Below the pieces are notes generated by a model, which had not been told where the DNA came from, ran no database searches, and saw only the letters and a program-made list of their open reading frames with translations. DNA of 64,000 nucleotides from contig NC_016631.1 of the NCBI RefSeq assembly GCF_000178955.2, positions 2,604,001 through 2,668,000 of the forward strand. Direction: 5' to 3'. Shown piece after piece: positions 6,808 to 62,476 of this stretch. The stretch is from Granulicella mallensis MP5ACTX8 (GTDB lineage: Bacteria > Acidobacteriota > Terriglobia > Terriglobales > Acidobacteriaceae). The translations under genes were made by a program, and so were the position numbers. Every line of letters starts with the position of its first letter. Within the stretch, counting starts at the first letter, position 1.

Positions 6808-9800
6808 TTAGGGCCGCGTTCCGAGCGTGTTGTTGGTGGTGCCGGTTACGGTAGGTGTTACGACCGGAGCGGCACCGCCGATGATCTTGGTCACAGAGTT
6901 ATTGCCTTTGTTGGGTATCCATACCGAGCCTGAGTTGTCGATGATGATGCCGGTTGGCGTGCTAATGCCTCCGCCCTGGTATCCGGTGCTCGGTGTCACC
7001 GCTGTGCCGGTTGAGCTGAGAACGCTGACAGAGTTATTGGCATTGGCGGCCCAGACCTGGCCCAGGCCATCGATGGCCAGCGACGTCGGCTTATTGACTC
7101 CGGCCGCAGCGTTGCCGGGTACCGCGATGACTGTACCCGTACTCGTAAACTCGGTGACAGCACTGGTTCCGTTGGCAACAGCCCAGACATCGCCGGCGTT
7201 GTCGAAGGCCACGGCACCGTAGGTACCGACCGTACCCGCTGTGCCCGCGCTCCCAGCCTGTGTTCCGGTTTCGGAGAGGCTGTCTAATGTACCGTTCGCG
7301 TTGATCACCCAGATCAGGCCGCCTTCCACTGTGAGCGCCGCGGTCGCAGCGGCCCCTGTCGGGCCATTGCTGGAAGTGATTGTGCTGGTCGTGTCATTCG
7401 CAGTTTCTATCGTGTTGCCCTTCACTTGCACCGCTACAGAGCAGGACGAGTTCGCCCCCAGGATAGGCTCCGAGATCGAGAAGGTCCCGCCGTTGACGTT
7501 GAAGGACCCGCAGGTCCCAGCGAGGAACGACACGAACGTGATGCCTGAAGGCAGCGTGTCCGTGTACTGCATATTCGTGAGCGCTACCGCATTCGGATTG
7601 GTCACCGTGATGGTGAGCCGTGAAGTATCTCCCACAGGGATCGTCGTCGGATTGAAAGCCGCCGAAGCCACCGGCGCAGTGAGCAGGTTGAGGTCGAAGC
7701 TGGCGCTCTGTGCCTCAATCACCGCCGTGGGCGCATGGAGCGTCAGGCCCGCATTCAGCTTCAGCCCACTGACTGAGGTCGCATTGGTCGCGGTCAGCGA
7801 ATAGCTGGCCACACCGTTAGCCGTACTGGTGCTGGCCGAAACGGGCGAGCCGGAGAGCGTGGCGCCGCTGCTCAGCGTCACCGGGATGCTCTCGCTCGCG
7901 CCCAGGAAGGGACTGCCGCTTTCGGTCAGGGTAATGGCTACCGGGAAGGCTACGCCTGAAATCTCCGTGGCCGCCGGATCGGTGGTGAAGCTTATCGCAT
8001 AGTGGCTCTCCACCGCTCCTGAATCCTGGCACGTCGCCGTGCCGTAGCTCGTTGTGCGCGGATCGCCGCGCTGGTCGGTCCCCGTTGCCGTGGAAGGATT
8101 GATGTCACAGATCGCCGGCGACCCTGGCAGCGGGACCATCGTCTGGGTCGGCCCACCATAGCTGCCCAGCGACGACAGGGCGACCGTACCCCCTACGAGA
8201 TTGCCGTTGCTTCCATTGATGGGGCACGTACTTCCGCCACCGGCCCCGCAGTCGCCGCCGGTGTTGCCGGAGAGGATGGAATTCGTGACCGAGAGCGTTC
8301 CGTAGTTAAAGATTCCGCCCGCTGAGCCGGAGCTCGCCGAATTTCCGCTGAAAGTACTGTCCGTAATCGTGACAGTCGTTCCTGTATTAATGAACATGGC
8401 GCCGCCCGCATACGGTCCTAAGGCAGTGTTCCCGGTAAAGGTGCTGGAGCTAACGGTGACCGTTCCACTGCCTGCACTTACCGCGCCGCCTGGCGCGGAG
8501 GAGTTTCCGGTGAAGGTGCTCCCAGCTATGGCCAGGGTGCCTAACGTATAGATGGCTCCTCCACCATTCCCTCCGCCGGTGATAGAGCCCCCCGCATAGT
8601 TGTTGCTAAAGGTGGTATTCGTCACCGTGAGGACCCCGAGGTTATCGACCCCGCCCCCTTCGGCTGTGGTATGGCCGTTGGCGATGATCAGGTTACTGAT
8701 CGAAGCATTGGTTACGCCGCTGGCAACGCTGAACACCGGGAAATTGCTGCTCGATCCGCCGCCGCTCACCGTCACCAGGTTGGTCAGCGTCGTTCCGCTG
8801 CCGCTCGTCGCGCCGGTGATGGTCGTGCTCGAAGGAACGCTCAACGAGCTCGCCAGCGTAATCGTCTGCGGCGTCGCAAATACCGTTGGGTCGAAGGTGA
8901 CATTCCCCGCACCGAAGTCCGCAGCATTGGTCAGGGCCTCACGCAGTGTCCCCTGGCCGCTGTCCGCAGTGGAGGTCACCACAAAGTCGGGTACTGCAGA
9001 AGCCGTCAAAGCGGTGGCAATGGGGCCCTTGGTTGTAGAACCATTAACCGAGCCCGTATAGTTGAAGACCGGTGTGGCATCGAACGTTCCACTGCCGGCG
9101 CCTGATCCACCGGCGCCGCCTGTCGCACTGGCGCCAAGGGTACCGCTGTTTACCGTGATCAGAGTCCCCTGATTGACAAAGATGTCCGGGCCGGCAGCCG
9201 CGCCGCCACCACTGCTTCCATTGCCAAACGGAAATCCAGCAGACCCATTGCCTCCTGTTATCGCTCCAACGACAACACCTCCCGTACCGCCAGCGCCGCC
9301 CTCAGAGCCACCGCCACCGCCGCCAACGCCGCCAGCTCCACCACCGTCTTCGGCGCCGCCGCCGCCTCCGCCAAATCCGCCCTTACCTCCAGCCAGCACG
9401 CCGCCGCCTCCTCCTCCGCCAAATCCGCCGTTACCGGCGGCGTCAAGAGTCCCATTTGCGCCAGCACTGTTTGTCCCATAACCAGCCCCGCCTGTGCCTG
9501 GTGCAGATCCTGGGTTGCCATTCTCGTCTGCACCACCGCCTCCTCCAACGCCACCGGCGGCCCCATCTAATGTCGTTGTACTGCCATTTGCGCCCGGCCC
9601 CAGAACGCCGCCACCGCCACCATTCACGTAGGTACCGCTGGCGAGTGCACCATTTCCACCGTTGCCGCCTAAACCGCCGCCGCCTCCTCCGTCACCAGAG
9701 CCACTGGCGGAACAACCATTCCCACCGATCGCGCTGTCACTCGAAAAGTAGACATCACTCACCGTTACGGTAGCGGGCGCAGTGATGCCATTCACGAAGA

Positions 9801-10287
9801 GACCGCCACCCAGGCCGGCGCCTCCGCCTCCGCAGGCAATATGACCCAGTCCGCCATTGCCTCCCTTTCCCACCGCATTGCGTATGAGCAGGTTTTCCAG
9901 TTCCACCGTGCCGGTATCGACAAAGAACACGCGGTACGTGCCATTGCCGCTGATAATCACATTGCCCAGTGTCCCGCCATTGATCGTCAGGTTCTTCGTA
10001 ATGGACGGTAATGGACCGTTCAGCGTAATGGTGCACAGAGTTCCGCAGTTGAACAGGATGGTCGATCCGCTCGTCGCGTTCAGCAGGGCGTACCGCAAAT
10101 CGCCACTCTGCCCTGGACCATCCCCGGGATTGGTGGTCGTTGCTGCCGCGTCCGTGCTCAGCGTTACGGTCACCGTCTGTGCCGAAAGCGAGGTTCCCAC
10201 AGCCGCACAGATCGCCACAGTCACAATTTTCATGAGGGGGAAAATCCACTTGCTGCCGCCCTTACGGCCACATCCCATGGGACTCAT
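6808..10287 (-). CDS. Very large exported beta-helix/NHL-repeat protein with glycine-rich region
   Basis: This 1159-residue exported protein has a good ribosome-binding site (GGGAG) seven bases before the ATG at 10287, so the longer N-terminus with a basic stretch before the hydrophobic signal (VTVAICAAVGTSLSAQ) is preferred. After the signal, two blocks with LRYAL and LREAL motifs look like the start of right-handed beta-helix domains of surface proteins. They flank an extremely glycine-rich stretch (about residues 145-400). Next come Thr/Ser-rich beta-helix turns (TGN, NTTFSNN), a DUF11-like Ig domain (about 860-970) and a C-terminal propeller of NHL-like blades (IWVINANG, VWAVANG, VWAANANN, VWIPNKGN) ending in NTLGTRP. 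An adhesive or structural surface role is inferred. It lies inside the tRNA-Glu repeat-flanked segment and looks intact. Confidence 0.85.
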   Translation of the reverse strand: MSPMGCGRKGGSKWIFPLMKIVTVAICAAVGTSLSAQTVTVTLSTDAAATTTNPGDGPGQSGDLRYALLNATSGSTILFNCGTLCTITLNGPLPSITKNLTINGGTLGNVIISGNGTYRVFFVDTGTVELENLLIRNAVGKGGNGGLGHIACGGGGAGLGGGLFVNGITAPATVTVSDVYFSSDSAIGGNGCSASGSGDGGGGGGLGGNGGNGALASGTYVNGGGGGVLGPGANGSTTTLDGAAGGVGGGGGADENGNPGSAPGTGGAGYGTNSAGANGTLDAAGNGGFGGGGGGGVLAGGKGGFGGGGGGAEDGGGAGGVGGGGGGSEGGAGGTGGVVVGAITGGNGSAGFPFGNGSSGGGAAAGPDIFVNQGTLITVNSGTLGASATGGAGGSGAGSGTFDATPVFNYTGSVNGSTTKGPIATALTASAVPDFVVTSTADSGQGTLREALTNAADFGAGNVTFDPTVFATPQTITLASSLSVPSSTTITGATSGSGTTLTNLVTVSGGGSSSNFPVFSVASGVTNASISNLIIANGHTTAEGGGVDNLGVLTVTNTTFSNNYAGGSITGGGNGGGAIYTLGTLAIAGSTFTGNSSAPGGAVSAGSGTVTVSSSTFTGNTALGPYAGGAMFINTGTTVTITDSTFSGNSASSGSAGGIFNYGTLSVTNSILSGNTGGDCGAGGGSTCPINGSNGNLVGGTVALSSLGSYGGPTQTMVPLPGSPAICDINPSTATGTDQRGDPRTTSYGTATCQDSGAVESHYAISFTTDPAATEISGVAFPVAITLTESGSPFLGASESIPVTLSSGATLSGSPVSASTSTANGVASYSLTATNATSVSGLKLNAGLTLHAPTAVIEAQSASFDLNLLTAPVASAAFNPTTIPVGDTSRLTITVTNPNAVALTNMQYTDTLPSGITFVSFLAGTCGSFNVNGGTFSISEPILGANSSCSVAVQVKGNTIETANDTTSTITSSNGPTGAAATAALTVEGGLIWVINANGTLDSLSETGTQAGSAGTAGTVGTYGAVAFDNAGDVWAVANGTSAVTEFTSTGTVIAVPGNAAAGVNKPTSLAIDGLGQVWAANANNSVSVLSSTGTAVTPSTGYQGGGISTPTGIIIDNSGSVWIPNKGNNSVTKIIGGAAPVVTPTVTGTTNNTLGTRP

Positions 10288-10293
10288 TTGCTC

Positions 10294-11165
10294 GCTCCCG
10301 TAATACTGCGTATACCGAATCGTGCTTCCGGTTCTTCAGGCCCGATGAAACGGCCTTATTACGCCAAGGCCTGGACGCACGTTGTTGGAACCCAACGCAA
10401 AGTGGTTTTTGTGGAGAATGACGTCACCATTTTACTCAAACGGCGTTTTCGCACAATGGCTGGCGAAAAAGTTAGAGTCTCGCCCCGTTCCTCTCCGCAT
10501 ATGCTGTGGCGATTCAAAGCGCGGCAAGGAACGCATCGAGCTGGCGATTGCTCGTGCAAGGAATCCATCCAGCGGAACCCGACATTATTGGCCTGTTCGC
10601 GATTGTTCACCTCGCTCTGAAGCCAACAGTTTTACCCGAACTGCTCAGTGAGCTTCCTATGTCCGGGCTATGCCGCGCCCTGCTGCTCGGGAGCATGGGG
10701 ACTCGCTTTCCAGACGATTTTGGGAAGAAGCCGAGGTCATGAAATCTGCGTGAGATGTGCTCTTATGCCGCGATGCCGATCCGTTATCGGTGAGTGCATC
10801 GGGGATTTACCACCAATCGATATGGGACGGAGAGTGGGCGCAAGCCATGCGCAGTTGCAGAGAATAACGTTTTACCTGCACCACAAATCAATAAACCGGG
10901 CTTATGGTTTGAGTGGGATGCTGGCCCTAGCAGGCGGCAACCTTGGGACATGCGGTATCGTCCTCAGTATCGGAGGATTCACGCTGAGCATTGCCGGATC
11001 ATCCTGACGATCGGCTATTTTCAGAAATCATTCAAGAAGCGCTGGTAGACTTTTCGTCGTCCCTGACTGAACTCAACCCGGACCTCGTCAGGTATGACGT
11101 TCAATAGGTCAAGACACGCCGTTGCCTTGGGAGCGGCTCGACATAACGACAGAAGGAGAATGAAA
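10294..11165. other. About 870 bp with no gene I can support
   Basis: Several overlapping frames of 70-120 codons exist on the plus strand, but none has a convincing ribosome-binding site or a recognisable family pattern. The stretch before 11045 encodes a protein-like segment (GLWFEWDAGPSRRQPW followed by a basic tail) that may be the end of a decayed gene. Given the surrounding recombinase and toxin-antitoxin remnants, this is most likely eroded island DNA. It probably also holds the promoters of the large minus-strand gene (near 10290-10380) and of the OsmC gene. Confidence 0.4.
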
Positions 11166-19881: not shown

Positions 19882-21201
19882 TCAATGTCCAGTCTCAGGG
19901 AGACGATGACAGGCTACTACTTCGAAGGTATCGAGTGACGAGGCCATGGTATTTACGCGGAGCAGGATCTCAAACTGAGCATTGCGATCATAAACGTCGA
20001 TACCGTGCTCCTGAAGCACTCGGTCTATGGAATCCACATCTGTGACTAACCTGTAGGCCGCTTCCGTGGCTACAGCGTTGGAACCGGCAAGGATCAGAAC
20101 GTGCCCTGTTTGATTCGGATTCTCGAGCAATCCTATAATCGCAAATGCCTGCCCTGTTCCCCATCCTGGAGACGTAGGAGCATAAACGGATGTCTCTCCG
20201 TGTCCGACTCTTCGGTTATTAATAATTTCTTCATGCCGCTTTGGATCATATGTGAAATAGAAATCGAGCCGATCCTGGAAGAGAGCAACCCAGGGATCCG
20301 ACACTGGGCTGCCGAGTAGTATGAAGTTGTCTTCCGTCTTGAAGTCCTGGGATTGAAGCGCTCTGGCGCGATATGTGTTAATGGGCCCCGATGGGAGCAG
20401 ACTCCTGACACTGAGGGCGAAGTCGGCATCAATCATAGGAACGTTATAACCCTTGAAGAGCCGTTCTATAACGCTGGAAGGATGATCCAATAGCTGTTGC
20501 GTGGGTAAGTAGCGATGGTCTGCGTAGTCCGTGAGTGAAATCGCGCTCCCGGTGAGTCCTTGAAGAGCAACGATGTCGGGATCGCTAAATACAATCTTCA
20601 GTTGCTCTCGGCGCGGCAGCATAGCCGCCCACGGCAGACGGTCGGCTTTGGTCGACGGCATGCGGTAGTGATACACGCTCGCCAAAAGACCTAACACCAT
20701 CAAGGCCATCGCCACCGGCAGGAGGCGACGCCAGATGGAAGACCGTGTAGCCGGTGGTTGCGGAATCTCCTCTGGCTCGGATGGCTGTGGAGAGTTGGGT
20801 ATCTCTGGTGGGGCAGCCTGCTCAACGAACTCAATGACATAGGCCCCGGGAGGCAGGTCTAGACGGATGTCTGTTTCGACATCGTCATAGAAACGCTTCA
20901 GTCGTCTCCTGACGTCGGTCGCAGTCACGCGCACGATCGCATCCTCACCCGTATCGTAGGCAGGATCGCGGCCGAACAGCTGCATCCCAATCATGCGTTC
21001 CTTCAACTCGTCGTGCTGGCCCGCCAGCGTCTTATCCAGGAGATGTTGTAGAAACTCACAACTCCTGCGACTTCTGCTGAACGCTCGACTTGTTACGATC
21101 CGATCAACATGGTGCCGTAGCTCGTTCGCGCGCGAAACGATCAAATCGGTCCTGAGGGTGAACAAATCTTCATTCGATGGTTCCTGCTTTATCGGGTTCA
21201 C
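19882..21201 (-). CDS. Membrane-anchored acidobacterial regulator-like protein of unknown function
   Basis: This 439-residue protein has a basic, helical N-terminal domain (residues 30-110: SRSRRSCEFLQHLLDKTLAG, LFGRDPAYDTGEDAIVRVTA, VRRRLKRFYDD), a Pro-rich linker and one transmembrane helix at about 160-177. About 260 extracytoplasmic residues follow. I recognise this architecture only as an uncharacterised acidobacterial family often next to large TonB receptors. The N-terminal part resembles an intracellular interaction or DNA-contact domain, so a transmembrane regulator is an inference. It is divergent from the receptor at 21372, with 170 bp between the starts. Function is not established. 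Confidence 0.85.
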   Translation of the reverse strand: MNPIKQEPSNEDLFTLRTDLIVSRANELRHHVDRIVTSRAFSRSRRSCEFLQHLLDKTLAGQHDELKERMIGMQLFGRDPAYDTGEDAIVRVTATDVRRRLKRFYDDVETDIRLDLPPGAYVIEFVEQAAPPEIPNSPQPSEPEEIPQPPATRSSIWRRLLPVAMALMVLGLLASVYHYRMPSTKADRLPWAAMLPRREQLKIVFSDPDIVALQGLTGSAISLTDYADHRYLPTQQLLDHPSSVIERLFKGYNVPMIDADFALSVRSLLPSGPINTYRARALQSQDFKTEDNFILLGSPVSDPWVALFQDRLDFYFTYDPKRHEEIINNRRVGHGETSVYAPTSPGWGTGQAFAIIGLLENPNQTGHVLILAGSNAVATEAAYRLVTDVDSIDRVLQEHGIDVYDRNAQFEILLRVNTMASSLDTFEVVACHRLPETGH

Positions 21202-21348
21202 ACGGCGAACATATCAAATTCACGATTCATGACTGTTAAAACTCACGTTAGGAAATAAATCTCATATTTACAGTGACATCCCAAACTGTTACGAATCCGG
21301 TCCTAACTACCGGATCGACGGCTGACGTGTGTACATAGAGGAGGAACA

Positions 21349-21375
21349 TTGATTTCACTGCCAGCCGGGAGATGA
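21349..21375 (+). other. Eight-codon upstream ORF overlapping the receptor start
   Basis: TTG at 21349 follows a strong AGGAGG (21339-21344) and opens MISLPAGR. Its TGA (21373-21375) overlaps the ATG of the receptor gene (ATGA at 21372-21375). The receptor's own ATG has GGGAG directly adjacent, too close for normal initiation. Translational coupling through this leader, or initiation of the receptor at GTG 21378, would explain the layout. Confidence 0.4.
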
Positions 21376-24300
21376 AAGTGAAGATAAGCCGTCGAGGATT
21401 TCGGAATATCGTTTGGGCGCTGGTTTGTTTGATGGGCCTTCACATCTGTATGTACGGGCAGTCGGACACCAGCACGATTACAGGTTTCGTCAAGGATCCA
21501 TCGGGGGCGATGGTTTCCAACGCACAGGTTACAGCGATATCTGAGGCTACGCAGGAAAGCCATACGGTCACGACAGATAAGAGCGGATACTACTCGCTTT
21601 CAAACCTTTCAGCCGGATTTTATTCTCTGTCCGTTCACATACAGGGATTCAAGTCCTTTGAAAGCGTCCACAATAAGTTGGACGCACTGTCGACCTTATC
21701 GATCAATGCCTCACTGGCCATCGGTACTTCCAATGAGTCTGTTGAAGTGACCTCGAGTGCGGAGCGTATACAGACCGATTCCGGGTCGGTTCAGCACCTG
21801 ATCACCGGGGAGCAGATTCAGCATCAGGAACTCAACGGCCGGAACCCGGTCTTCATGGCGGAGTTACTGCCTGGTGTGATCACGGGATCTACACTTGGTG
21901 ACTTCAATTTCGGCGTTAGTAAGCCGGGCTTCTCCGTCAACGGCGCGGAGTCGACAAGCACAACGGTAACGCTTGATGGCGCGCCTGCCGTTCGTACTCG
22001 CGCAAACACGTACGTCATTGGCGCTCCGAACGTGGACTCAACCGAAGAAATTCAAGTGTTGACCGCGGCCTACTCGGCTGAATACGGTGGGGCCAGCGGT
22101 GCTCAGGTCCGCATGGTCAGCAAAAGTGGAACGACCGACTTCCATGGAACGGTATATGAATATTTGCGAAATTCGGCATTGAATGCGAATACCTGGTCGC
22201 GCAACCAAAGTCCGACAACAAGATTTGCATCACCTTTTCGCTATAACGACTTCGGCTTTGCCGCAGGGGGGCCGATCTGGACTCCCGGTCTGCCATCCAC
22301 ACTGCGCAGAAAGCTCTTCTGGTTTGTGGCCCAAGATTGGATCCGATACAGGTATACAGATACTAATTTTGAAACTGTCCCCACAAGCCTCATGCACATG
22401 GGTAATTTCAGCGAATTACTCGGGCCGAACCCGTTTTATAGCACCCCTAAGATCATCACCAACCCCTTTGATTGCACGACCACCAACGGAAAGAAGACCT
22501 GCGCGCCGTTTGCTGGAAACATCATTCCGCAAAATCTGTGGAGCTCCAACGGAATGGCTATCCTGAGCGTTTATCCGGAGCCTATTCCGGGGCTGCTCGT
22601 CAACGGAGATCAGAACTGGGAAGCTACGGCCCCTCATCCGATCAACCAGAGAAAAGGCACTTACGACTTCGATGTCATTGTGAACGACAGGCACCACATC
22701 TCATTTCGGCGAACAGACCTCTCCTATAACGAGTATTCGGCTCTCGATCAGGGGTTGGGGCTGACAGGTTTATTCAAGACGTGGCCGAACCAGACGAACA
22801 CTCTTTCCTGGGTCTGGAGCATCACACCCACAACGGTCAATGAGATGGGCGGGACTCTTAGCATTGACCGGGTATCACAGCAGGCCGATCTTGCGGATCC
22901 GGGCTTTAATCGAAGCAATTATGGAATCAACTATAACTACATCGTTCCCGGGGGTAAGGACCTCAACAAAATTCCGAGCCTAAGCCTGCCGAGTCCTTTC
23001 TTTAGTTTGAGTGGTGGGCCCTATCCATCGCACTCCGGTGGGCCGATCTATTCCTACAGGGATAGCCTGACGAAATCATCGGGGAACCATCTCTTCAAGT
23101 TCGGCTTTTCATATGACTATCGGGGCGAGGATGACGACGACCAGATCAACATTACAACGGTTCCCGGAGGCAGCAGCAACCAGAACGGAACCTTTACCCT
23201 CACCGACTCCTATGCGAATGGCAGCGGTTTAGGTCTCGCCAATCTGGCCCTTGGGCTGGCTGATAGTTATACCGAGATCGGACCGCGGGCATACACGATT
23301 TGGCGGGGCGCCATGTATGAATCGTTTGCCCAGGACTCGTGGAAGATTACCCCCAAACTGCACCTCGACTATGGGCTGCGCGATACGATTGCTTTCCCCT
23401 TTCACTCCCTGTGGGGGAACGCTGCCTACTTCGATCCCGCTCTGTATAACCCAGGGCAGGCTGTCAGTGTCAACCCCAAGACAGGCCTGGTCGCCGTGGG
23501 TAGCGGCAACCAATATAATGGAATGGTCATTCCGGGTCTCTCAGGCTTCCCGAACGGCGCCGCGCAACACGGGGTTTTTCAAGCTACCACTCCCGATGCT
23601 TACACGAGCTTGTTCAACCCTGGTTTGCCTCGTGGCTTGGTTGATGCTCAAAATGCCCTTCAGCCGCGCCTGGGAATTGCATACCAATTTACCGATAAGA
23701 CCGTGATTCGCGCTGGCGGCGGCCGGTTTCTCACTCGAATGGGTTTGCTGGACAACATCTTCCCCGGCGGGAACTCTCCATTCCAGCCTTTCGTCACTGT
23801 GTCGGGCATTTCGGTGGACAATCCAGGAGCTGGGTTGAACACTGCCACAGCGCCCACGTTGGCCGTGACAACGTATGACCGCAATATCAGACAACCGGAT
23901 GCCTGGAACTGGAACGTTACGGTGGAGAGGCAGCTTCCTTGGAGTTCGGTGCTATCCGTTGCCTATGTAGGTCGCCGCGGGTTACACCTCTGGGATTCGG
24001 CGGACATCAATGAGCCGCTCCCAGGAACCACGTATGCGAATCCTGGGGTTAACATAGCCGCTTTAGCTCCTTATAAGGGTTTCTCCTCGATTCTGATGGA
24101 GCAGAGTGTGGCCAGTTCGAGATACAACTCTTTGCAGATCTTCTGGGAGAGGCGGTTTGTCAGGTCTCTGGGCTTCTCGGCTGCTTACACGCTGGCCAAA
24201 AGCATGGACAATAGCTCCAGCTATAGTGACACTGTTCCGGATACGTACGACTCAAGCAATCTTTGGGGCCCTTCCACTTTCGATGTTCGTCAGGCTTTTG

Positions 24301-24854
24301 TTGCTACTTCTACCTATGACTTGCCGTTTCTGAGAGACAAGCGACGCCTCACCGACAAGATACTCGGTGGCTGGCGGCTCAGCCTCACCGCTCAATTTTT
24401 GAGCGGCGCCCCACAGAGCGTCTACACGACGAACACTGACTACGCTGGGGTGGGGGTTCCCGGCCTGCCTCAATTCTGGGTACTGAATGGAAAGCCTCGC
24501 TACCCACGCCAGTTCTCGACCGCCTCCACGAGTTCGAATACGTACTTCAGTACGACCACATCCAACGGTAGTCCGCTGTTTACCGCACCTACCCAGGGAA
24601 CCTTCAACCTGCAGCATGGAATTCGCGACGTAATCTACGGTCCCGGATATGAGGATTGGAACGCGGGGCTATTCAAGCAATTTGCCATCAACGAACGGAA
24701 TAACTTTGAATTTCGGGCCGAGGCCTACGACGTCTTCAATCATGCCAATTGGTCGAGTCCCGGCATCACTCCCGGTACTTCCACCTTTGGCAAGGTCACC
24801 AGCAAGACCGCTCTCTCCCGGCAACTCCAGTTATCGCTACGCTACTCGTTCTAA
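21372..24854 (+). CDS. Oar-like TonB-dependent receptor with carboxypeptidase-regulatory domain
   Basis: This 1160-residue outer-membrane protein begins with a basic signal peptide (SRRGFRNIVWALVCLMGLHI). A carboxypeptidase-regulatory-like fold follows (about 35-115: TITGFVKDPSGAMVSNAQVT, DKSGYYSLSNLSAG). Next come a plug with VTLDGAP and EEIQVLTAAYSAEYGGASGA and a long beta-barrel ending in LQLSLRYSF with a terminal Phe. This is the acidobacterial Oar/CarbopepD_reg receptor type, proposed to import large nutrients such as glycans or peptides, though most are uncharacterised. The Tat-exported GH92 mannosidase just downstream suggests a mannosyl substrate. A divergent membrane-anchored protein is the likely regulator. 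A strong hairpin follows the stop. The start could be ATG 21372 or GTG 21378. Confidence 0.93.
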   Translation: MKVKISRRGFRNIVWALVCLMGLHICMYGQSDTSTITGFVKDPSGAMVSNAQVTAISEATQESHTVTTDKSGYYSLSNLSAGFYSLSVHIQGFKSFESVHNKLDALSTLSINASLAIGTSNESVEVTSSAERIQTDSGSVQHLITGEQIQHQELNGRNPVFMAELLPGVITGSTLGDFNFGVSKPGFSVNGAESTSTTVTLDGAPAVRTRANTYVIGAPNVDSTEEIQVLTAAYSAEYGGASGAQVRMVSKSGTTDFHGTVYEYLRNSALNANTWSRNQSPTTRFASPFRYNDFGFAAGGPIWTPGLPSTLRRKLFWFVAQDWIRYRYTDTNFETVPTSLMHMGNFSELLGPNPFYSTPKIITNPFDCTTTNGKKTCAPFAGNIIPQNLWSSNGMAILSVYPEPIPGLLVNGDQNWEATAPHPINQRKGTYDFDVIVNDRHHISFRRTDLSYNEYSALDQGLGLTGLFKTWPNQTNTLSWVWSITPTTVNEMGGTLSIDRVSQQADLADPGFNRSNYGINYNYIVPGGKDLNKIPSLSLPSPFFSLSGGPYPSHSGGPIYSYRDSLTKSSGNHLFKFGFSYDYRGEDDDDQINITTVPGGSSNQNGTFTLTDSYANGSGLGLANLALGLADSYTEIGPRAYTIWRGAMYESFAQDSWKITPKLHLDYGLRDTIAFPFHSLWGNAAYFDPALYNPGQAVSVNPKTGLVAVGSGNQYNGMVIPGLSGFPNGAAQHGVFQATTPDAYTSLFNPGLPRGLVDAQNALQPRLGIAYQFTDKTVIRAGGGRFLTRMGLLDNIFPGGNSPFQPFVTVSGISVDNPGAGLNTATAPTLAVTTYDRNIRQPDAWNWNVTVERQLPWSSVLSVAYVGRRGLHLWDSADINEPLPGTTYANPGVNIAALAPYKGFSSILMEQSVASSRYNSLQIFWERRFVRSLGFSAAYTLAKSMDNSSSYSDTVPDTYDSSNLWGPSTFDVRQAFVATSTYDLPFLRDKRRLTDKILGGWRLSLTAQFLSGAPQSVYTTNTDYAGVGVPGLPQFWVLNGKPRYPRQFSTASTSSNTYFSTTTSNGSPLFTAPTQGTFNLQHGIRDVIYGPGYEDWNAGLFKQFAINERNNFEFRAEAYDVFNHANWSSPGITPGTSTFGKVTSKTALSRQLQLSLRYSF

Positions 24855-24861
24855 GAACAAG

Positions 24862-24896
24862 AACAGGGAGACGGATACTTCTTCCGTCTCCCTGTT
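24862..24896 (+). terminator. Strong hairpin after the TonB receptor
   Basis: A perfect 14-bp stem (24862-24875 with 24883-24896), loop TACTTCT, followed by TCTCTTT. It lies 8 bp after the receptor stop and fits a factor-independent terminator, so the GH92 gene probably has its own promoter or depends on read-through. Confidence 0.8.
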
Positions 24897-24931
24897 TCTC
24901 TTTAACGCTTACTCTCAAAGGAGTGCAGATC

Positions 24932-25078
24932 TTGCTTCGACTTTTGCCCTACTGTCCTATCTTCCTATTGCTCGCAGCATCTTCCCTGAGCCTGCTGTCA
25001 GTTGCCCAGACATCGCAAGCGCTAGGTTCTGGGGAGATTGGCCAGCGTGTAGTCGCCAGCGAGGGCAAAAAGACATAG
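24932..25078 (+). CDS. Small exported peptide upstream of GH92
   Basis: The TTG at 24932 has AAAGGAG eight bases upstream and encodes 48 residues. The sequence starts MLRLLPYCPIFLLLAAS and has a hydrophobic core ending at VAQ, then about 22 hydrophilic residues (SGEIGQRVVASEGKKT). It looks like a complete signal peptide followed by a very short mature part. The stop lies 4 bp before the GH92 start, so translation would be coupled. It could be a real small secreted peptide or the surviving front of a deleted exported protein. No family is recognised. Confidence 0.5.
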   Translation: MLRLLPYCPIFLLLAASSLSLLSVAQTSQALGSGEIGQRVVASEGKKT

Positions 25079-25082
25079 CATC

Positions 25083-27431
25083 ATGGTTATGGCACGCGAC
25101 GATCGTTTTTCAGCAGAGAATCCAACCCTCCCTTCCTCGAATCCCGTTCAACCAGGCAGACGACGTTTTCTCAAGGCCTCCGGTCTAGCTGCGGCAGCCA
25201 CCGCGATCAGCCCGGTAGCGTTTGCCGCTTCACCCGAACCACACTCAGGCGCCGGCACAGTTACAGATAGCAAGCCGATGTGGCCTCTCGATGCGGTCAA
25301 TCTTTTGCAGGGCTCGCAATCGACGCCGGTTTTCTCGCATGGCAACACGCTGCCCATTGCGACAGCACCATTCGGCATGGCGCACTGGACGATCCAGACT
25401 CAGGCAAACACTCCCTGGATGTTTCAGCCGTGGGCGCGGCGCACACAAGGGTTCCGCTGCACGCATCAGCTCAGCCCGTGGCTCGATGACTACGGCCATG
25501 CGGTCTTTATGCCATTTCGCGGCAACGTACATGCAGACGCCAGTCCACGCGCCTCGTCCTATATTCCGGAAGACGCGGTGCTCACACCGTATTCTCTCCA
25601 ACTCTTCCTGCTGCGCTATCGTGCCAAAGTCGAGCTGGTGCCCACCGAGCGCTGCTGCGTTCTCTCGGCCGACTTTGAAGCACCCGATCCGGCAGATACG
25701 GATCAGACGATTGGCCTGATCCTGGATGTTCCCGCGACTAGCTCCCCCATTACGGCACACAAGGAGCAGAAGCGGGTGCAGTTCACTTCGACCGCGAGTT
25801 CCGGGGGGACGCCCGATAACTTTGCGACTTACTATGTTGTCGAGTTCGCGGAACCGTGGGACAGTTTCGAAGTGCAGCCGCACTCCGACCGCCAGAAGAA
25901 GGAACAGCAGGTCGCCGTGGTGAAGTTCAAGAGCGGGACGAGGCTGGAGGCGCGCATCGGGACCTCGTTTATCTCGTTTGAGCAAGCGCTGTTTAACCTG
26001 CGCGAAGAAGTCGGCGAGCGGTCGCAATCCGCCGTCAAAGAAGCAACAGAGAAGCACTGGAGCGAGATGCTGGAACGCATCGAGATCGAAGGTGCGACGG
26101 CAGAGCAGCAGAGGACGTTCTACTCCTGTCTCTATCGCACGTTGTTGTTTCCCCGCACCTTTCATGAGCCTGTGCCCGGCGGCAAGGGCATGCATCACTA
26201 CAGCGCATTCACCGGCAAGATCTCGCCGGGAGTGATGTATGCCGATCACGGCTACTGGGATGTCTATCGCGCCTGGTATCCCCTGATGTCGATTGTTTTT
26301 CCGGAAAAGCTCTCAGAGATACTGCAGGCCTGGGTCAATGCGTTGAACGAAGGCGGCTGGTTTCCGCAGTTTCCGGCACCTGGGTACCGTGCCTGCATGT
26401 CCGGCAGCCTGATTGACTCGCTCTTTGCGGATGCGATCGTGAAGGGAATCGGGTCGTTTGACCGCGAGGTTGTTTTCGCCGGGCTGAAGAAGCACGCAAC
26501 CATGCCGGGCGATCCCGACAAAGGCTATGGACGGGTTGGCGTGGAGAAGTATATGAAGCTGCACTACGTGCCGGCTGACCAGATAGAACAGTCGGTTGCC
26601 GAGACCGCCGACGCGGCGTACGGTGACTTCTGTATCGCGCAGATCGCGAAGATTCTTGGCAAATCCGAAGACTACTCCACCTTCATGGAGCGAGCCGCTT
26701 ACTGGCGAAACGTGTATGACACGGGTGTCGGCTTCTTTCGTGGCAAGAACGCCGATGGTTCCTGGCTCTCACCATTCGACTCGTTCACCTGGGGCAGTCC
26801 CTATGAAGAGGGGTCCGCGTGGCAGCATCGCTGGGATGCCCCGCACGCGGTGAAGGATCTCTTTGAGGCGCTCGGCGGTAAAGCGGCGGCGGTGGATGCG
26901 CTCGAGAAGATGGTCACGCTTCCACCGATCTTCCACGTCGGCGTATACGGAGGGGAGATCCACGAGATGTCCGAAATGGCAGCTGTCCCCTTCGGTCAGT
27001 ACGCCCACTCGAACCAGCCTTCACACCACATGCTGTACCTCTTCGCTGAGGTAGGCCGTCCTGATCGGACACAGTTCTGGGTGCGTCGCACGTTGAACGA
27101 GTTGTACTCGCCGGACTCTTTTGCCGGCGACGAAGATACAGGTTCCATGGCCGCGTGGTACATCTTGAGCTCACTCGGCTTCTACCAGGTGTGCCCGGGT
27201 GTTCCAGAGTATACGATCGGAGCGCCGCTCTTCCCGCAGGCCACTGTTCACCTGCCAGGCGGTAAGACCCTGAAGGTGCGTGCCGAAGGAAACTCCGCGG
27301 ACACGGTGTACGTTGAAAAGGTTTCCCTTAATGGAGAAGCACGTACCGGCCGAAAACTCTCGCACCGGGAGATCGCTGCGGGCGGCACGCTTCTCTTCAG
27401 AATGACCGCCCAGGCACCGAAGACGAGCTAA
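25083..27431 (+). CDS. Tat-exported GH92 family alpha-mannosidase-like protein
   Basis: This 782-residue enzyme starts with a Tat signal (RRRFLKASGLAAAATAI). The N-terminal beta-sandwich carries GFRCTHQLSPWLDDYG. The catalytic (alpha/alpha)6 barrel has YADHGYWDVYRAWYPL, QFPAPGYRACMSGS and the signature AGDEDTGSMAAWYILSSLGF near residue 680, whose acidic residues act as general base and bind Ca in GH92. The family trims alpha-1,2-, 1,3- or 1,6-mannosyl residues by inversion. The N-terminal GTG-type motif is more divergent than in the GH92 at 55798, so specificity may differ. Its neighbours (TonB receptor, small exported ORF) suggest glycan uptake. The start may be ATG 25083 or 25089. Confidence 0.88.
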   Translation: MVMARDDRFSAENPTLPSSNPVQPGRRRFLKASGLAAAATAISPVAFAASPEPHSGAGTVTDSKPMWPLDAVNLLQGSQSTPVFSHGNTLPIATAPFGMAHWTIQTQANTPWMFQPWARRTQGFRCTHQLSPWLDDYGHAVFMPFRGNVHADASPRASSYIPEDAVLTPYSLQLFLLRYRAKVELVPTERCCVLSADFEAPDPADTDQTIGLILDVPATSSPITAHKEQKRVQFTSTASSGGTPDNFATYYVVEFAEPWDSFEVQPHSDRQKKEQQVAVVKFKSGTRLEARIGTSFISFEQALFNLREEVGERSQSAVKEATEKHWSEMLERIEIEGATAEQQRTFYSCLYRTLLFPRTFHEPVPGGKGMHHYSAFTGKISPGVMYADHGYWDVYRAWYPLMSIVFPEKLSEILQAWVNALNEGGWFPQFPAPGYRACMSGSLIDSLFADAIVKGIGSFDREVVFAGLKKHATMPGDPDKGYGRVGVEKYMKLHYVPADQIEQSVAETADAAYGDFCIAQIAKILGKSEDYSTFMERAAYWRNVYDTGVGFFRGKNADGSWLSPFDSFTWGSPYEEGSAWQHRWDAPHAVKDLFEALGGKAAAVDALEKMVTLPPIFHVGVYGGEIHEMSEMAAVPFGQYAHSNQPSHHMLYLFAEVGRPDRTQFWVRRTLNELYSPDSFAGDEDTGSMAAWYILSSLGFYQVCPGVPEYTIGAPLFPQATVHLPGGKTLKVRAEGNSADTVYVEKVSLNGEARTGRKLSHREIAAGGTLLFRMTAQAPKTS

Positions 27432-55797: not shown

Positions 55798-58143
55798 TTA
55801 GGTCACATCCTGGCTATGCAAGCTAGCGGAAGGGGGCGCTAGCGCTGGATCTGCGCCTAGATTGCGGTTAGGAGCAGATCCCATCTTTATATGGAAGGAC
55901 GTTCCTGACTTCAGATCGTCATGCGTGAACCAGAGTTTTCCGTAATCATGGCCACTGCGGTCGATGGACTGGATGTAAACCTCATCCGGGTTCGATCGGG
56001 TGACGTTGATCACGAACTTTCGACTTTGCGTTGTGGCGATCGTGATGCGGTCGAACAACGGTGAACCGAACACATAGGCTCCGCTTGTCGGATCCGTCAT
56101 GTAAAAGCCCATGGCGCTCATCACGTACCAGGCAGACATCTGGCCGCAGTCCTCATTGCCCGCCAGGCCGTCAGGCTTATTGTCGTACATGGATTCAAGA
56201 AGCGAATGGATTCGTGGTTGCGTCTCGTATGGTGTGTCTGTGTAGAGGTATAGGTACGCAATGTGATGGCTCGGTTCGTTGCCGTGAGCATACTGTCCGA
56301 CGAGACCCGCGATGTCTGGTGGCGCATCGGGTGGAAGTTCTGAACTCGCGTTGAAGATTCCATCGAGCTTGGACTTCAGGGCGCTACGGCCGCCCATCAG
56401 TTCGGCCAGGCCAGCTGGGTCATGTTGTACCGCGAACGTCGCCTGCCAGGGGTTGGACTCCGCATAGTCACGCCACTGCTTGGAGTGCCCCATTTCATTG
56501 GGTGCAAAGGGAAGTGCCCACTCGCCGGTCTTCAGGCGAGGCCGCATGAAGCCAGTCTGCTTGTCGTAAAGATTGCGATATCCCTGGGAGCGCTTCTCCA
56601 GTGCAATCGAGGTCTCAGTGTCACCCGCCGCCCGCAGAACGCGCGAGACGGCCCAGTCGTCATAGCAGTAATCAAGCGAAACGCTGACGGACTGGGGAAA
56701 TATATCGCAAGGAATGAACTTGTTTTCTCGATACAGAGGGAGGCCGCGAACGTCGCTCTCAAGGGCCTCCTTGCGCATGACCCTGGCGGCTCTCTGCAGA
56801 TCGATGCCTGGAAAGCCCTTCGCCACCGCTTCGGCGATGACCACTGCCGAGTGATAGCCGGTCATGCACTTCGTTTCCTTCGCCTGCAGCGGCCAGATGG
56901 GCATTCCCATCGCACTCTGTTCGGCCATACGGATAAGACAGTTCATCATTGCCGGTATAAGTTCCGGCTTCACGATAGTGAGAAGAGGATGAGCGGCGCG
57001 GTATGTGTCCCAGAGAGAGAAGGTGCTGAAGTTATGTTCGCCGGTCTCCAGCGTGTGGTTCTGTCCATCCATGCCGCGATATCGTCCGTCTACATCGTCG
57101 AAGATGGTTGGTGCCAGCAAGGAGTGGTAGAGGGAAGTGTAGAAGATCTGTTTCTGCTTCAGCGTGCCCCCGTCTACCCGGATGCGTGACAGGTTTTCTT
57201 CCCAGGTCTGAGCAGCTTGTTCTCTCACCGCATCGAAGTTCCAATGGGGTGCCTCTGCTTCGAGGTTCTTCATCGCGCCCGCTTCGTCGACACCAGAGAC
57301 AGCGGTCTTCATCAGGATTTGTTCCTGAGCACTCGTCTTGTAATGAAGCACCGCCTGGATCGACTTGCCCTTCAGCTCGGCGGAATGATTGTCTACGCGT
57401 TGACCGTCGACGAAGATTTCAAGCGAGTCGAATGGTCGTGAGACCTTCATCGCGAAATAGATCTCGCGTCCGTTGGCCCAGCGAGCAGTGCTCTTTCCGC
57501 CGACCAATGTATCGTTGCCCTGGACCCGAAGATTGCTCCATCGCACGACGTTGGGACCGTCGTCGTAGCCATGGGCGAGATCGACGATGAAGTAGCTCTC
57601 ATCGCTTTTCGGAAAGGTATATCGATGCATCCCTGTTCGCTCAGTTGCAGTCAACTCCGCTGTGATCTTGTAGTCGCTGAGAAGAACGGAGTAGTAGCCC
57701 GGTGATGCTCGCTCGTCTTCATGATGAAAGCGCGAGCGGTAGCCCTCTTCCGGATGTTCGCGCGTTCCGGGAACCGTCTTGACGGCACCTGTGCAGGCCA
57801 TGACGAGGATGTCCAGCATGTCACCGATGCCAGTGCCACTGAGATGGGTATGACTGAAGCCCATGATGGACGAGTCTGAGTAGTTGTACCCGGAGCACCA
57901 GTCCCAGCCTCGGTTGTAGGTATCTGGACTGAGTTGCACCATCCCGAACGGCAGCGTGGCACCGGGATAGCAGTGTCCGTGGCCGCCTGTTCCAATGCGG
58001 ATATCAACGTATTGAGAGACCTTGGCGTTACTCTCCGAGTGGTCAGCATAGGTGTTTGCGATCGTGCCAAGGGATCGCGCTTTCGCAATTCCACTGCAAA
58101 GGCTAGCAGCGCTTAGGGCGGTGAAACGTCGCCGTGAAATCAT
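55798..58143 (-). CDS. GH92 family alpha-mannosidase
   Basis: This 781-residue exported enzyme starts with MISRRRFTALSAASLC (Tat-like). The N-terminal beta-sandwich carries the canonical IGTGGHGHCYPGATLPFGM, then LSPDTYNRGWDWCSGYNY and MGFSHTHLSGTG. The catalytic barrel includes FSLWDTYRAAHPL, MTGYHSAVV and the signature GNEDCGQMSAWYVMSAMGFY, whose Glu/Asp provide catalytic base and Ca ligands. It should trim alpha-linked mannose by inversion. It sits in a tight run with the GH71/99-like gene (30-bp gap) and the SGNH hydrolase. Compared with the GH92 at 25083, the N-terminal motif is much closer to the family norm. Confidence 0.94.
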   Translation of the reverse strand: MISRRRFTALSAASLCSGIAKARSLGTIANTYADHSESNAKVSQYVDIRIGTGGHGHCYPGATLPFGMVQLSPDTYNRGWDWCSGYNYSDSSIMGFSHTHLSGTGIGDMLDILVMACTGAVKTVPGTREHPEEGYRSRFHHEDERASPGYYSVLLSDYKITAELTATERTGMHRYTFPKSDESYFIVDLAHGYDDGPNVVRWSNLRVQGNDTLVGGKSTARWANGREIYFAMKVSRPFDSLEIFVDGQRVDNHSAELKGKSIQAVLHYKTSAQEQILMKTAVSGVDEAGAMKNLEAEAPHWNFDAVREQAAQTWEENLSRIRVDGGTLKQKQIFYTSLYHSLLAPTIFDDVDGRYRGMDGQNHTLETGEHNFSTFSLWDTYRAAHPLLTIVKPELIPAMMNCLIRMAEQSAMGMPIWPLQAKETKCMTGYHSAVVIAEAVAKGFPGIDLQRAARVMRKEALESDVRGLPLYRENKFIPCDIFPQSVSVSLDYCYDDWAVSRVLRAAGDTETSIALEKRSQGYRNLYDKQTGFMRPRLKTGEWALPFAPNEMGHSKQWRDYAESNPWQATFAVQHDPAGLAELMGGRSALKSKLDGIFNASSELPPDAPPDIAGLVGQYAHGNEPSHHIAYLYLYTDTPYETQPRIHSLLESMYDNKPDGLAGNEDCGQMSAWYVMSAMGFYMTDPTSGAYVFGSPLFDRITIATTQSRKFVINVTRSNPDEVYIQSIDRSGHDYGKLWFTHDDLKSGTSFHIKMGSAPNRNLGADPALAPPSASLHSQDVT

Positions 58144-58173
58144 GATGCTCCTGTCTAACGGGGGATTGAATTT

Positions 58174-59466
58174 TTACTTAGCTGGCTTAAGCGGAAGCTT
58201 TTTGGAAGGCGTCGTTTCTTCTACAAATATCTTCTTGATCTGCGTTGTTAGTTGAAGGTAGAAATCCGATGGAAGCTGTTTGCCGTCCGCATCCAGCGTC
58301 AGCCAGTAGCCTGGCGTTGGGGCATCGGCGCGACGCGGAGCCGCTTTAAAAATTGCGGTGCCTTCATTGACTTCATCGAACATGGCTATCTTCACCATGC
58401 AGGCACCCGCAGTCCGGGCGTTGTAGGCCTGTCGCCAGAAGAATTCACCGCCAAGCCGGGGTATCTGGTTAGCAGGGGACTCCGGCTTCAAGTTGTGCCA
58501 CGAGAATCCCGGAAAGATCACGGGCATATAGAGCTGATGATTCTTTTGTGTCAGGGCCACGTCAGGCTCCAGATGCGAAGTCTTCCAGTGATCGGCGGCT
58601 TCAGGAGAGTTATACCGGCCTACGGTCCAGGGTTGCACTACATCGAGCGCCGCATAGACACTTGCCCAATTCGGATCATGCGTACTGTCTCCAGAGAGGC
58701 TGCCCCAACCTGAAGGTGTTCCTCCGATGACGGCTGCTCCTTGCTGCTGGAACCAGCGGATGATCTTCAGCGCGAGTACTGGATCGACGATGTGATGCCC
58801 GTCTCCGAAGCCTAGTCCCCAGATAGCGATAACAGGTTTACCGTTCAGCCGCAGGTAGGCGTTGCTGCTGACAAAGCCGTCCCGTTGAAGGTAGGACCAG
58901 TCATCCTGGAGTTGTGCGAAGACCGTGTCGAGATGGGCCCCGCTCAGGTCGTACTCCACGGCAAACTTCCGGCCATGGTCTTCCGCCGCGGAGCGAATGT
59001 TGTGGAGGACGGCATCGCCCTCACGCATAAGGCCAGGTGTCGAGTTGATGAAGCGCTGGGCCAAAGCTCCATCGATTCCGTATTGCTGCATCCATGCGAA
59101 GTGCGTTTCAACGGTTTCTTTGCGATAGGAAGAGAAGACGTATGCCGGTTGACCATCGATGGTTGCGGCAGGAAGTTTGCATAGTGACTTCGAGTCAAGC
59201 TCTGAAGTATCGGGGTAAAGATCGATGGCCATCGTGTCTGGAGAGGGCGCGCCTTTCGACCAGTGACTCCATGTGTTCGCGGGAGAGCCGTCACCTGGAC
59301 ACCGAAACCATCCCTGGTATCCGACCAGTACAAGACCCTTGGCTGTGCCGCATGGTTGCTGTACAGAACTCTCCGCGACCGAAGGGAGGAATGCTGTTGT
59401 CAGTAATAGACCAGCACTCAAGGTGCGCAGAAGATCGAGGAGGGAACGTTCGAATAGCTTGATCAT
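58174..59466 (-). CDS. GH71/GH99-like glycoside hydrolase
   Basis: The start at 59466 opens a signal peptide (LLRTLSAGLLLTTAFLPS); the frame is open to 59538, but the operator-like site just upstream favours the later start. The TIM-barrel sequence has GLVLVGYQGWFRCPGDG, HFAWMQQYGIDGALAQRF, FAVEYDLSG, KPVIAIWGLGFGDGHH and MVKIAMFDEVNEGTA. Carboxylates in the last segment fit the end of a GH71/99 barrel. GH99 enzymes are endo-alpha-mannosidases or mannanases; GH71 are alpha-1,3-glucanases. Context with GH92 favours mannan. It begins the minus-strand run with GH92 and SGNH genes. Confidence 0.82.
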   Translation of the reverse strand: MIKLFERSLLDLLRTLSAGLLLTTAFLPSVAESSVQQPCGTAKGLVLVGYQGWFRCPGDGSPANTWSHWSKGAPSPDTMAIDLYPDTSELDSKSLCKLPAATIDGQPAYVFSSYRKETVETHFAWMQQYGIDGALAQRFINSTPGLMREGDAVLHNIRSAAEDHGRKFAVEYDLSGAHLDTVFAQLQDDWSYLQRDGFVSSNAYLRLNGKPVIAIWGLGFGDGHHIVDPVLALKIIRWFQQQGAAVIGGTPSGWGSLSGDSTHDPNWASVYAALDVVQPWTVGRYNSPEAADHWKTSHLEPDVALTQKNHQLYMPVIFPGFSWHNLKPESPANQIPRLGGEFFWRQAYNARTAGACMVKIAMFDEVNEGTAIFKAAPRRADAPTPGYWLTLDADGKQLPSDFYLQLTTQIKKIFVEETTPSKKLPLKPAK

Positions 59467-59542
59467 GGCAACTCTTGAGGGAACAGATTCAGAACAGAAA
59501 CGTGTGCTGAAAGATCGTGTGACCGCGCAGCGAGACAAGTGT

Positions 59543-62375: not shown

Positions 62376-62476
62376 AGGTGTTCTCCAGGTTCCAGCGATG
62401 GTCAACCCTTGGGGTGTCGGCCGGGATTTGATTCCCGCTCAACCTGGCCATCTTGGAACGCGAGGATTCTATACAA

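Follow-up and report, generated by a model that had tools for sequence, protein, structure and literature searches.

A predicted membrane-anchored DNA-binding protein paired with Oar-type receptors in Granulicella mallensis and other Acidobacteria

Acidobacteria are abundant soil heterotrophs that encode dozens of Oar-type TonB-dependent receptors, the substrates and control of which are mostly unknown. Here, we analyzed a 64,000-nucleotide stretch of the Granulicella mallensis MP5ACTX8 genome (hereafter "the window"; host genome: a single contig of 6,237,577 bases that carries 4,907 protein genes), and in particular the region 19882–27431. For this region, a first-pass annotation had proposed a glycan-sensing and uptake unit composed of a 439-residue membrane regulator-like protein, a divergent Oar-like receptor, a 48-residue exported open reading frame (micro-ORF), and a glycoside hydrolase of family 92 (GH92) exported through the twin-arginine translocation (Tat) pathway. 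Three of these four pieces, i.e., the regulator (P0001), the receptor (P0002), and the GH92 (P0003), are real genes, and the micro-ORF is unsupported as a gene. The regulator and its divergent receptor form a real unit at 19882–24854; its other proposed components are insecure.

Both open reading frames of this pair were recovered as first described, with 170 bp between them (Table 1). P0002 is a full member of the Oar-type family PF25183 (588.6 bits) and also matches the CarboxypepD_reg (62.6 bits) and Plug (33.9 bits) families, all above their cut-offs; nothing unusual was noted in the receptor itself. The GTG start of P0001 has no clear ribosome site, and may, judging from the sequence, be misplaced by ~20 codons.

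Table 1 Features of the regulator–receptor locus and its flank (window coordinates).
Feature	Coordinates	Strand	Remarks
Membrane-anchored regulator P0001, 439 aa	19882..21201	-	Winged-helix-like N-domain, membrane helix, outer alpha/beta domain; model pLDDT (predicted local distance difference test) 85.6
Outer (periplasmic) candidate sensor domain, residues 185–439	19885..20649	-	BcsB-like alpha/beta fold (predicted)
Single membrane helix (predicted), residues 156–180	20662..20736	-	Model helix, hydrophobic stretch
Winged-helix DNA-binding domain (predicted), residues 22–132	20806..21138	-	N-domain model pLDDT 91.6
Candidate operator GTTACGAATCCGGTCCTAAC, imperfect palindrome	21288..21307	+	Conserved in 10 aligned orthologous intergenic regions
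Candidate -10 box TACATA of receptor promoter	21332..21337	+	Fits TTG-N17..19-TAnnnT pattern common to loci
Oar-type TonB-dependent receptor P0002, 1160 aa	21372..24854	+	Predicted target of the regulator
14-bp hairpin 3' of receptor gene	24862..24896	+ (called on - strand)	Likely terminator, unit end
GH92 glycosidase P0003, 782 aa	25083..27431	+	Neighbour, membership uncertain

The predicted regulator and its family

The regulator family had been described as uncharacterized, and P0001 indeed matched no Pfam or NCBIfam family at an E-value of 1. Sequence searches of the PDB with P0001 and with profiles of the N-domain and of the full-length protein similarly returned nothing relevant. Literature searches retrieved no description of the family, which is weak evidence since subscription journals were thinly covered, and PMC5900883 gave no hits for TonB, Oar, CadC, SusC, or regulator terms.

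We thus relied on structure models, which were built from 54 sequences for the full protein and 46 for the N-domain. The full model reproduced the layout proposed in the first-pass annotation, i.e., a helical N-terminal domain, one long helix predicted to cross the membrane (residues 156–180), and a large outer part. A hydrophobic stretch occupies the position of this helix throughout the family alignment, and in P0001 it is flanked by basic residues on its N-terminal side. When the N-domain model was compared to known structures with VIA-align, the top 12 rows were all OmpR/PhoB-type DNA-binding domains, including PrrA (Z-score of 7.7 over 89 residues), SaeR (7.0), and PhoB (6.1); the ToxR domain scored 4.7. 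An OmpR/PhoB-type winged helix is therefore a good, although not certain, assignment for this modeled domain, and its candidate recognition helix would span residues 89–107 (IVRVTATDVRRRLKRFYDD), as assigned from the order of elements in the models. The modeled outer domain adopts a fold similar to that of BcsB, the periplasmic subunit of cellulose synthase (VIA-align Z-score of 10.6 over 166 residues, root-mean-square deviation of 3.2, 10% identity), and to the N-terminal domains of GH67, GH84, and GH115 (Z-scores of ~6 to 8.5), with unrelated structures appearing from 4.5 downward and Foldseek E-values of 5e-3 or worse. A BcsB-like fold by itself does not reveal a function.

The MP5ACTX8 genome encodes 25 genes with a P0001-type N-domain (29 profile rows, four of which were second pieces), most of which also carry a matching C-terminal domain. 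Across 40 genomes selected phylum-wide, the full family profile matched only six, with 1–3 matches in five of these and 26 rows in MP5ACTX8, so that the high copy number looks like a local expansion. To collect members from elsewhere, 84,980 species' genomes were scanned with two short motifs derived from the three closest members, yielding 59 loci that were all titled as Acidobacteria groups; because one of these motifs covers the recognition helix, this outside set is enriched for that helix. The nearest named relative is G. mallensis X5P3, in which the regulator is 96% identical to P0001.

Some members of the family carry other outer parts. At L043 (G000:C1:1351000-1370900, 8863–10413), the outer part consists of malectin domains, i.e., the same DNA-binding domain is joined to a sensor of a different, sugar-binding type; this member faces two large genes, and the one that was scanned also carries malectin. 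Another member, at L039 (G000:C1:5197500-5217400, 7735–9987), has a PD40 propeller as its outer part and lies 108 bp from a divergent Oar gene. A third, at L044 (G000:C1:1823000-1842900, 9251–10510), is interrupted by an in-frame TAG and still stands opposite an open Oar frame.

Pairing with Oar-type receptors

Next, we evaluated the genomic neighborhood of the family. Within MP5ACTX8, 16 of the 25 members directly face a divergent Oar gene, one faces a divergent GH92 gene, six face other divergent genes, and two have a same-strand neighbor on their 5' side. Several of these other neighbors head operons with an inner Oar gene, in the order GH2–Oar at L054 and PI-PLC–Oar–GH92 at L048. The genome contains at least 65 Oar-type receptors, and given 65 listed receptors among all protein genes, the binomial chance of observing 16 such neighbors in 25 is ~1e-24. 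As a yardstick, only 1 of 29 PF00486 matches in this genome is divergent from a listed Oar gene within 1.6 kb, and 4 of 29 within 3 kb. Outside MP5ACTX8, the set included 65 members, from which 6 at contig edges were left out; 30 of the 59 with a readable 5' neighbor face a divergent Oar gene, and several of the remaining ones face GH3, GH2, GH95, or GH92 genes. The pairing of a one-pass regulator with an Oar receptor thus extends well beyond the window, and homologues of P0001 are not found mainly away from TonB receptors, the pattern that the first-pass annotation had named as contradicting its proposal.

Regulators and receptors also co-vary. For 15 pairs in MP5ACTX8, distances between regulators and distances between receptors were correlated (Mantel r 0.43, with 8 of 5000 permutations as high), and since all these pairs come from one genome, this correlation is free of shared species ancestry. 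Across 42 pairs from all loci, the correlation reached 0.68, with 0 of 5000 permutations as high. The receptors closest to P0002 are those of L060 (98% identity, in strain X5P3), L061 (80%), and L078 (48%), followed by the MP5ACTX8 paralogue at L048 (40%), and the divergent arrangement is retained at both L060 and L061. No sigma or anti-sigma gene was named among the scanned neighbors, although no search with models of these families was made.

Separately from this family, two long PF00486 proteins (G000:C1:5464808 and 4072125; 752 and 756 aa) lie 1.1 and 2.2 kb, respectively, from divergent Oar genes. Classical CadC-like proteins may thus control a few receptors as well.

Candidate operator and promoter upstream of the receptor

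The regulator–receptor intergenic region (21202–21371) had been singled out in the first-pass annotation for a DNA-binding assay, and we found a conserved site within it. When 10 orthologous intergenic regions were aligned, a GTTA and a TAAC block were kept amid otherwise diverged DNA, together forming a palindrome of 17–20 bp. The same element emerged when every 5-mer dyad was counted, with no motif preset, in the 5' regions of 89 regulators: CGTTA/GTTAG dyads ranked at the top, and one example spacing occurred in 8 regions compared to 0.0 expected in shuffles and 1 in 76 controls, these controls being those divergent regions of the same loci that include no family member.

The presence of the palindrome follows the type of recognition helix. 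GTTA-N9-12-TAAC was detected in 30 of the 55 regions whose regulator carries the helix VRVTA[STN]DVR[RK]RL, compared to 2 of 34 regions associated with other helices and 6 of 76 controls. One of these six control sites precedes a GH92 gene at L087, a locus that also includes a family member.

The palindrome is further associated with promoter-like elements at fixed distances. Considering the 28 sites with enough sequence, a TTG follows the right half TAAC by one base in ~22, and TAnnnT is found 19 times within offsets 28–30 compared to 5 times in the remaining 38 offsets combined. These spacings match those of a sigma-70 promoter directed at the divergent gene, and the palindrome immediately precedes it. 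By our estimate, the center of the palindrome would lie near -45. Such a position is a usual one for an activator, and the layout of palindrome and promoter corresponds to an activator geometry, from which activation itself is predicted.

At one locus of another genome (L146, G071:C23), such a site precedes a divergent GH3 gene, and a second palindrome–promoter combination separates the regulator from a GH92 gene further downstream. This arrangement suggests that one regulator may serve both sides.

Proposed mechanism, alternatives, and extent of the unit

Taken together, these data suggest that the regulator probably resides in the inner membrane, senses a signal outside the cytoplasm, and switches on the neighboring outer-membrane receptor gene through a DNA site shared among loci. 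Specifically, the winged-helix domain of P0001 would be located in the cytoplasm, its single helix would span the inner membrane, and its BcsB-like domain would sense, in the periplasm, a glycan fragment imported by the partner receptor. Upon ligand binding, two DNA-binding domains would occupy GTTA-N9-12-TAAC immediately 5' of the -35 box, where they would attract RNA polymerase to the divergently oriented receptor operon and thereby create positive feedback. We consider it likely, by a comfortable margin over even chances, that the pair at 19882–24854 represents a self-contained sensing and uptake unit in which a one-component transmembrane activator controls its receptor operon. Neither the GH92 nor the micro-ORF is needed in this explanation.

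In its proposed mode of action, P0001 resembles both ToxR/CadC and SusR, and it is a member of neither by sequence or layout. Like ToxR and CadC, it combines an N-terminal OmpR/PhoB-type winged-helix fold, as predicted from the models, with one membrane helix, an outer sensor, and a gene located beside the presumed target. Unlike these proteins, it has no PF00486 match, its outer domain is different, and its family is expanded and paired with TonB-dependent receptors; in addition, the candidate site is palindromic here, whereas CadC is described as preferring AT-rich DNA (PMC5430869). SusR of Bacteroides, which was described as unique to Bacteroidetes, is a membrane protein that has its sensor in the periplasm and its DNA-binding domain in the cytoplasm and switches on an operon of receptor and glycosidase genes (PMC3878776). 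P0001 would be analogous as a single membrane protein predicted to sense outside and bind DNA inside. However, the DNA-binding domain is C-terminal in SusR and N-terminal in P0001, and the predicted SusR sites are direct repeats spaced by 67 or 77 bp (same source), compared to a palindrome here, where direct repeats were scanned with gaps of up to 16 bp. The first-pass annotation had viewed the locus as a possible analogue of Sus-type loci in which a one-pass regulator stands in for a sigma/anti-sigma pair. A one-pass regulator fits our models. The contrast with a sigma/anti-sigma pair is that of the first-pass annotation; the Bacteroides Sus system itself relies on the membrane regulator SusR (PMC3878776).

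Several observations weigh against the activator reading. At the protein level, P0001 offers no sequence evidence for a winged helix-turn-helix (0 Pfam families), the 46 N-domains matched no sensible Pfam family and no PF00486, and an hhalign comparison of the N-domain with the 20 PF00486 domains of the genome was not significant (2.2%), despite placing the recognition helix in the expected register. The winged-helix assignment is not certain, as the first-ranked Foldseek match of the N-domain, SaeR, was weak (E-value of 0.15), and Z-scores under 8 can reflect a common arrangement of elements. The pairing is not strict either, because Bryobacterales regulators that are 44–46% identical to P0001 face receptors not closely related to P0002, and other Acidobacteria encode few or no copies (6 of 40 genomes matched). 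At the DNA level, the -35 box of the receptor promoter in the window is degenerate (ACCGGA), and the palindrome is missing from 25 of the 55 right-helix regions; its enrichment (Fisher p 1e-6 relative to other helices and 3e-9 relative to controls) is uncorrected for relatedness. For other helix types, which represent most copies in MP5ACTX8, a shared dyad was sought and none was found, so that the palindrome has been demonstrated in only a portion of the family. The short palindrome was also rejected as a genome-wide marker because it is too common: it occurs at 15 places in the genome compared to 43 for a reversed control, and twice in the window compared to 1.0 expected. Finally, a composite pattern of palindrome, TTG, and -10 box yielded 7 matches in 4 of 120 genomes of the family compared to 6 for its reversed control, a count that is no better than chance. 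The locations of the matches are nevertheless informative and favor the proposed link, as all seven precede regulator, Oar, GH3, or GH92 genes (a regulator and a GH3 gene, a regulator and a small gene, a GH92 gene divergent of a regulator, a GH92 gene after a regulator, two Oar genes, and a GH3 gene); the control matches were only counted. Four of the seven lie outside the sites used to derive the motif.

Two alternative explanations concern the sign and the identity of the regulator. P0001 may act as a repressor that occupies the palindrome next to the -35 box until the arrival of ligand releases it. A site touching the -35 TTG could indeed block polymerase, and the pairing of neighboring genes is compatible with either sign; yet wherever a -10 match is present, the palindrome is positioned 5' of the promoter core and not across it, the poor -35 box in the window suits an activator-dependent promoter, and CadC, a ToxR-like protein, acts as an activator (PMC5430869). 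We thus consider repression distinctly unlikely. Even less likely, in our view, is that the palindrome belongs to a general regulator of glycan genes, with the 439-residue proteins traveling with receptors and acting otherwise, e.g., as part of an envelope uptake machinery. The composite matches away from the motif-source sites would fit this explanation, as three of these four precede Oar or GH3 genes with no family member in the 3-kb locus, and so would the right-helix regions without a palindrome (25 of 55) and an N-domain that is unrecognized by sequence. However, a general regulator would not readily account for a palindrome that is concentrated 5' of family genes (6 of 76 controls) and tracks the type of recognition helix (30/55 compared to 2/34), this helix being itself assigned from a fold model.

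A third possibility is that the entire region 19882–27431 represents one alpha-mannan locus in which the regulator, receptor, and GH92 act together, a view that is compatible with the activator reading of P0001. In the window, the GH92 gene adjoins the Oar gene, the nearest paralogous receptor (L048) also precedes a GH92 gene and has a family member upstream, the regulators 44–46% identical to P0001 adjoin GH99-like genes, and a GH99-like gene and a second GH92 gene are found together at 55798–59538. Conversely, the hairpin separates the receptor from the GH92 gene, different genes follow the receptor in X5P3 and at L061, the receptor–GH92 junction is a breakpoint between strains, and the GH99 loci contain other receptors. 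On balance, we regard a single alpha-mannan locus as rather unlikely, although a fair minority of the possibilities.

Beyond the window, a broader version of the activator reading can be formulated, in which an Acidobacteria-specific family of transmembrane factors serves as the standard local switch of Oar receptors, one per receptor, through a highly diverged winged helix on a palindrome abutting the -35 box, with outer sensors that share the fold of BcsB and glycosidase accessory domains or, in some members, consist of malectin domains or PD40 propellers, and with 25 copies in one genome. We propose this generalization tentatively, as somewhat short of an even bet. If correct, it would explain how dozens of glycan-feeding receptors are controlled in such bacteria, and would represent a second, independent solution to the problem faced by Bacteroides of how one protein can detect glycans beyond the cytoplasm, and a counterpart of the Bacteroides hybrid two-component and SusR systems. 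From a practical standpoint, a receptor-adjacent regulator with a predicted site and promoter lets reporter assays tie each receptor to a glycan, and the predicted operator and promoter together offer a route to predicting regulons from sequence.

The 3' boundary of the unit is informed by related loci. DNA identity with the window ends shortly after the receptor, at 24901 for L060 (X5P3) and 24907 for L061. In X5P3, the GH92 homologue (98%) is found at the start of a different contig; upstream of it, the match to the window starts only at ~25032, based on two strings compared by eye, and the DNA 3' of the X5P3 receptor maps to 4.53 and 4.56 Mb in the MP5ACTX8 genome. The resulting breakpoint between G. 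mallensis strains (window 24901, L060 4307) directly follows the receptor hairpin, which lies between the Oar gene and the 48-aa frame; across the whole region, hairpin-type sites are no commoner than in shuffles. At L061, the receptor is followed by phosphoesterase, copper oxidase, and GH38 genes, and not by a GH92 gene.

These breaks bear on the last two pieces of the unit as first proposed. The 48-aa frame is present in the window (TTG start, ~24932–25078), but the micro-ORF was discarded as a gene and as a part of the unit: it is absent from X5P3, the closest strain, because the DNA upstream of the GH92 gene differs there until ~25032, and the strain-level breaks around 24901–25032 place it in a junction between rearranged segments. 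The GH92 gene was similarly set aside as a fixed member, since it does not follow the Oar gene at L060 or L061, where other genes are found; its membership is uncertain because the hairpin and the strain-level breakpoint both come before it. The enzyme itself is well supported as a GH92 (481.6 bits for the catalytic domain and 101.1 bits for the N-terminal domain), and the Tat export attributed to it is less clear, the signal being weak and split around cut-offs (19.7 bits for Pfam TAT_signal, below its cut-off of 22.7; 17.3 for TIGR01409, above 16.7).

The enzymes encoded beside family members include GH2, GH3, GH31, GH38, GH92, GH95, NAGLU, PI-PLC, and GH99-like proteins, and because they span so many families, the regulators collectively are not linked to one particular glycan. 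For the P0001/P0002 pair, alpha-mannosides are a plausible guess only. The receptor at L048 with its downstream GH92 gene points in this direction, as do the GH99-like genes located after the partner receptors of the closest Bryobacterales regulators, although the latter argument is weakened because these receptors proved not to be close to P0002. Ten GH99-like genes were scanned in L062–L069: two, in L065 and L069, score high enough for the Pfam cut-off, seven score below it, and one has no match.

Elsewhere in the window, the second GH92 gene lies on the reverse strand beside the only GH99-like gene of the genome (58174–59538). Among the loci collected, the closest relatives of these two genes are found in L077, L071, L104, and L093, all of which include family regulators. 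Upstream of the GH99-like gene and on the same strand, 59640–62405 encodes a protein of 921 aa that combines malectin, ricin-type lectin, and alpha-1,3-glucanase-like domains.

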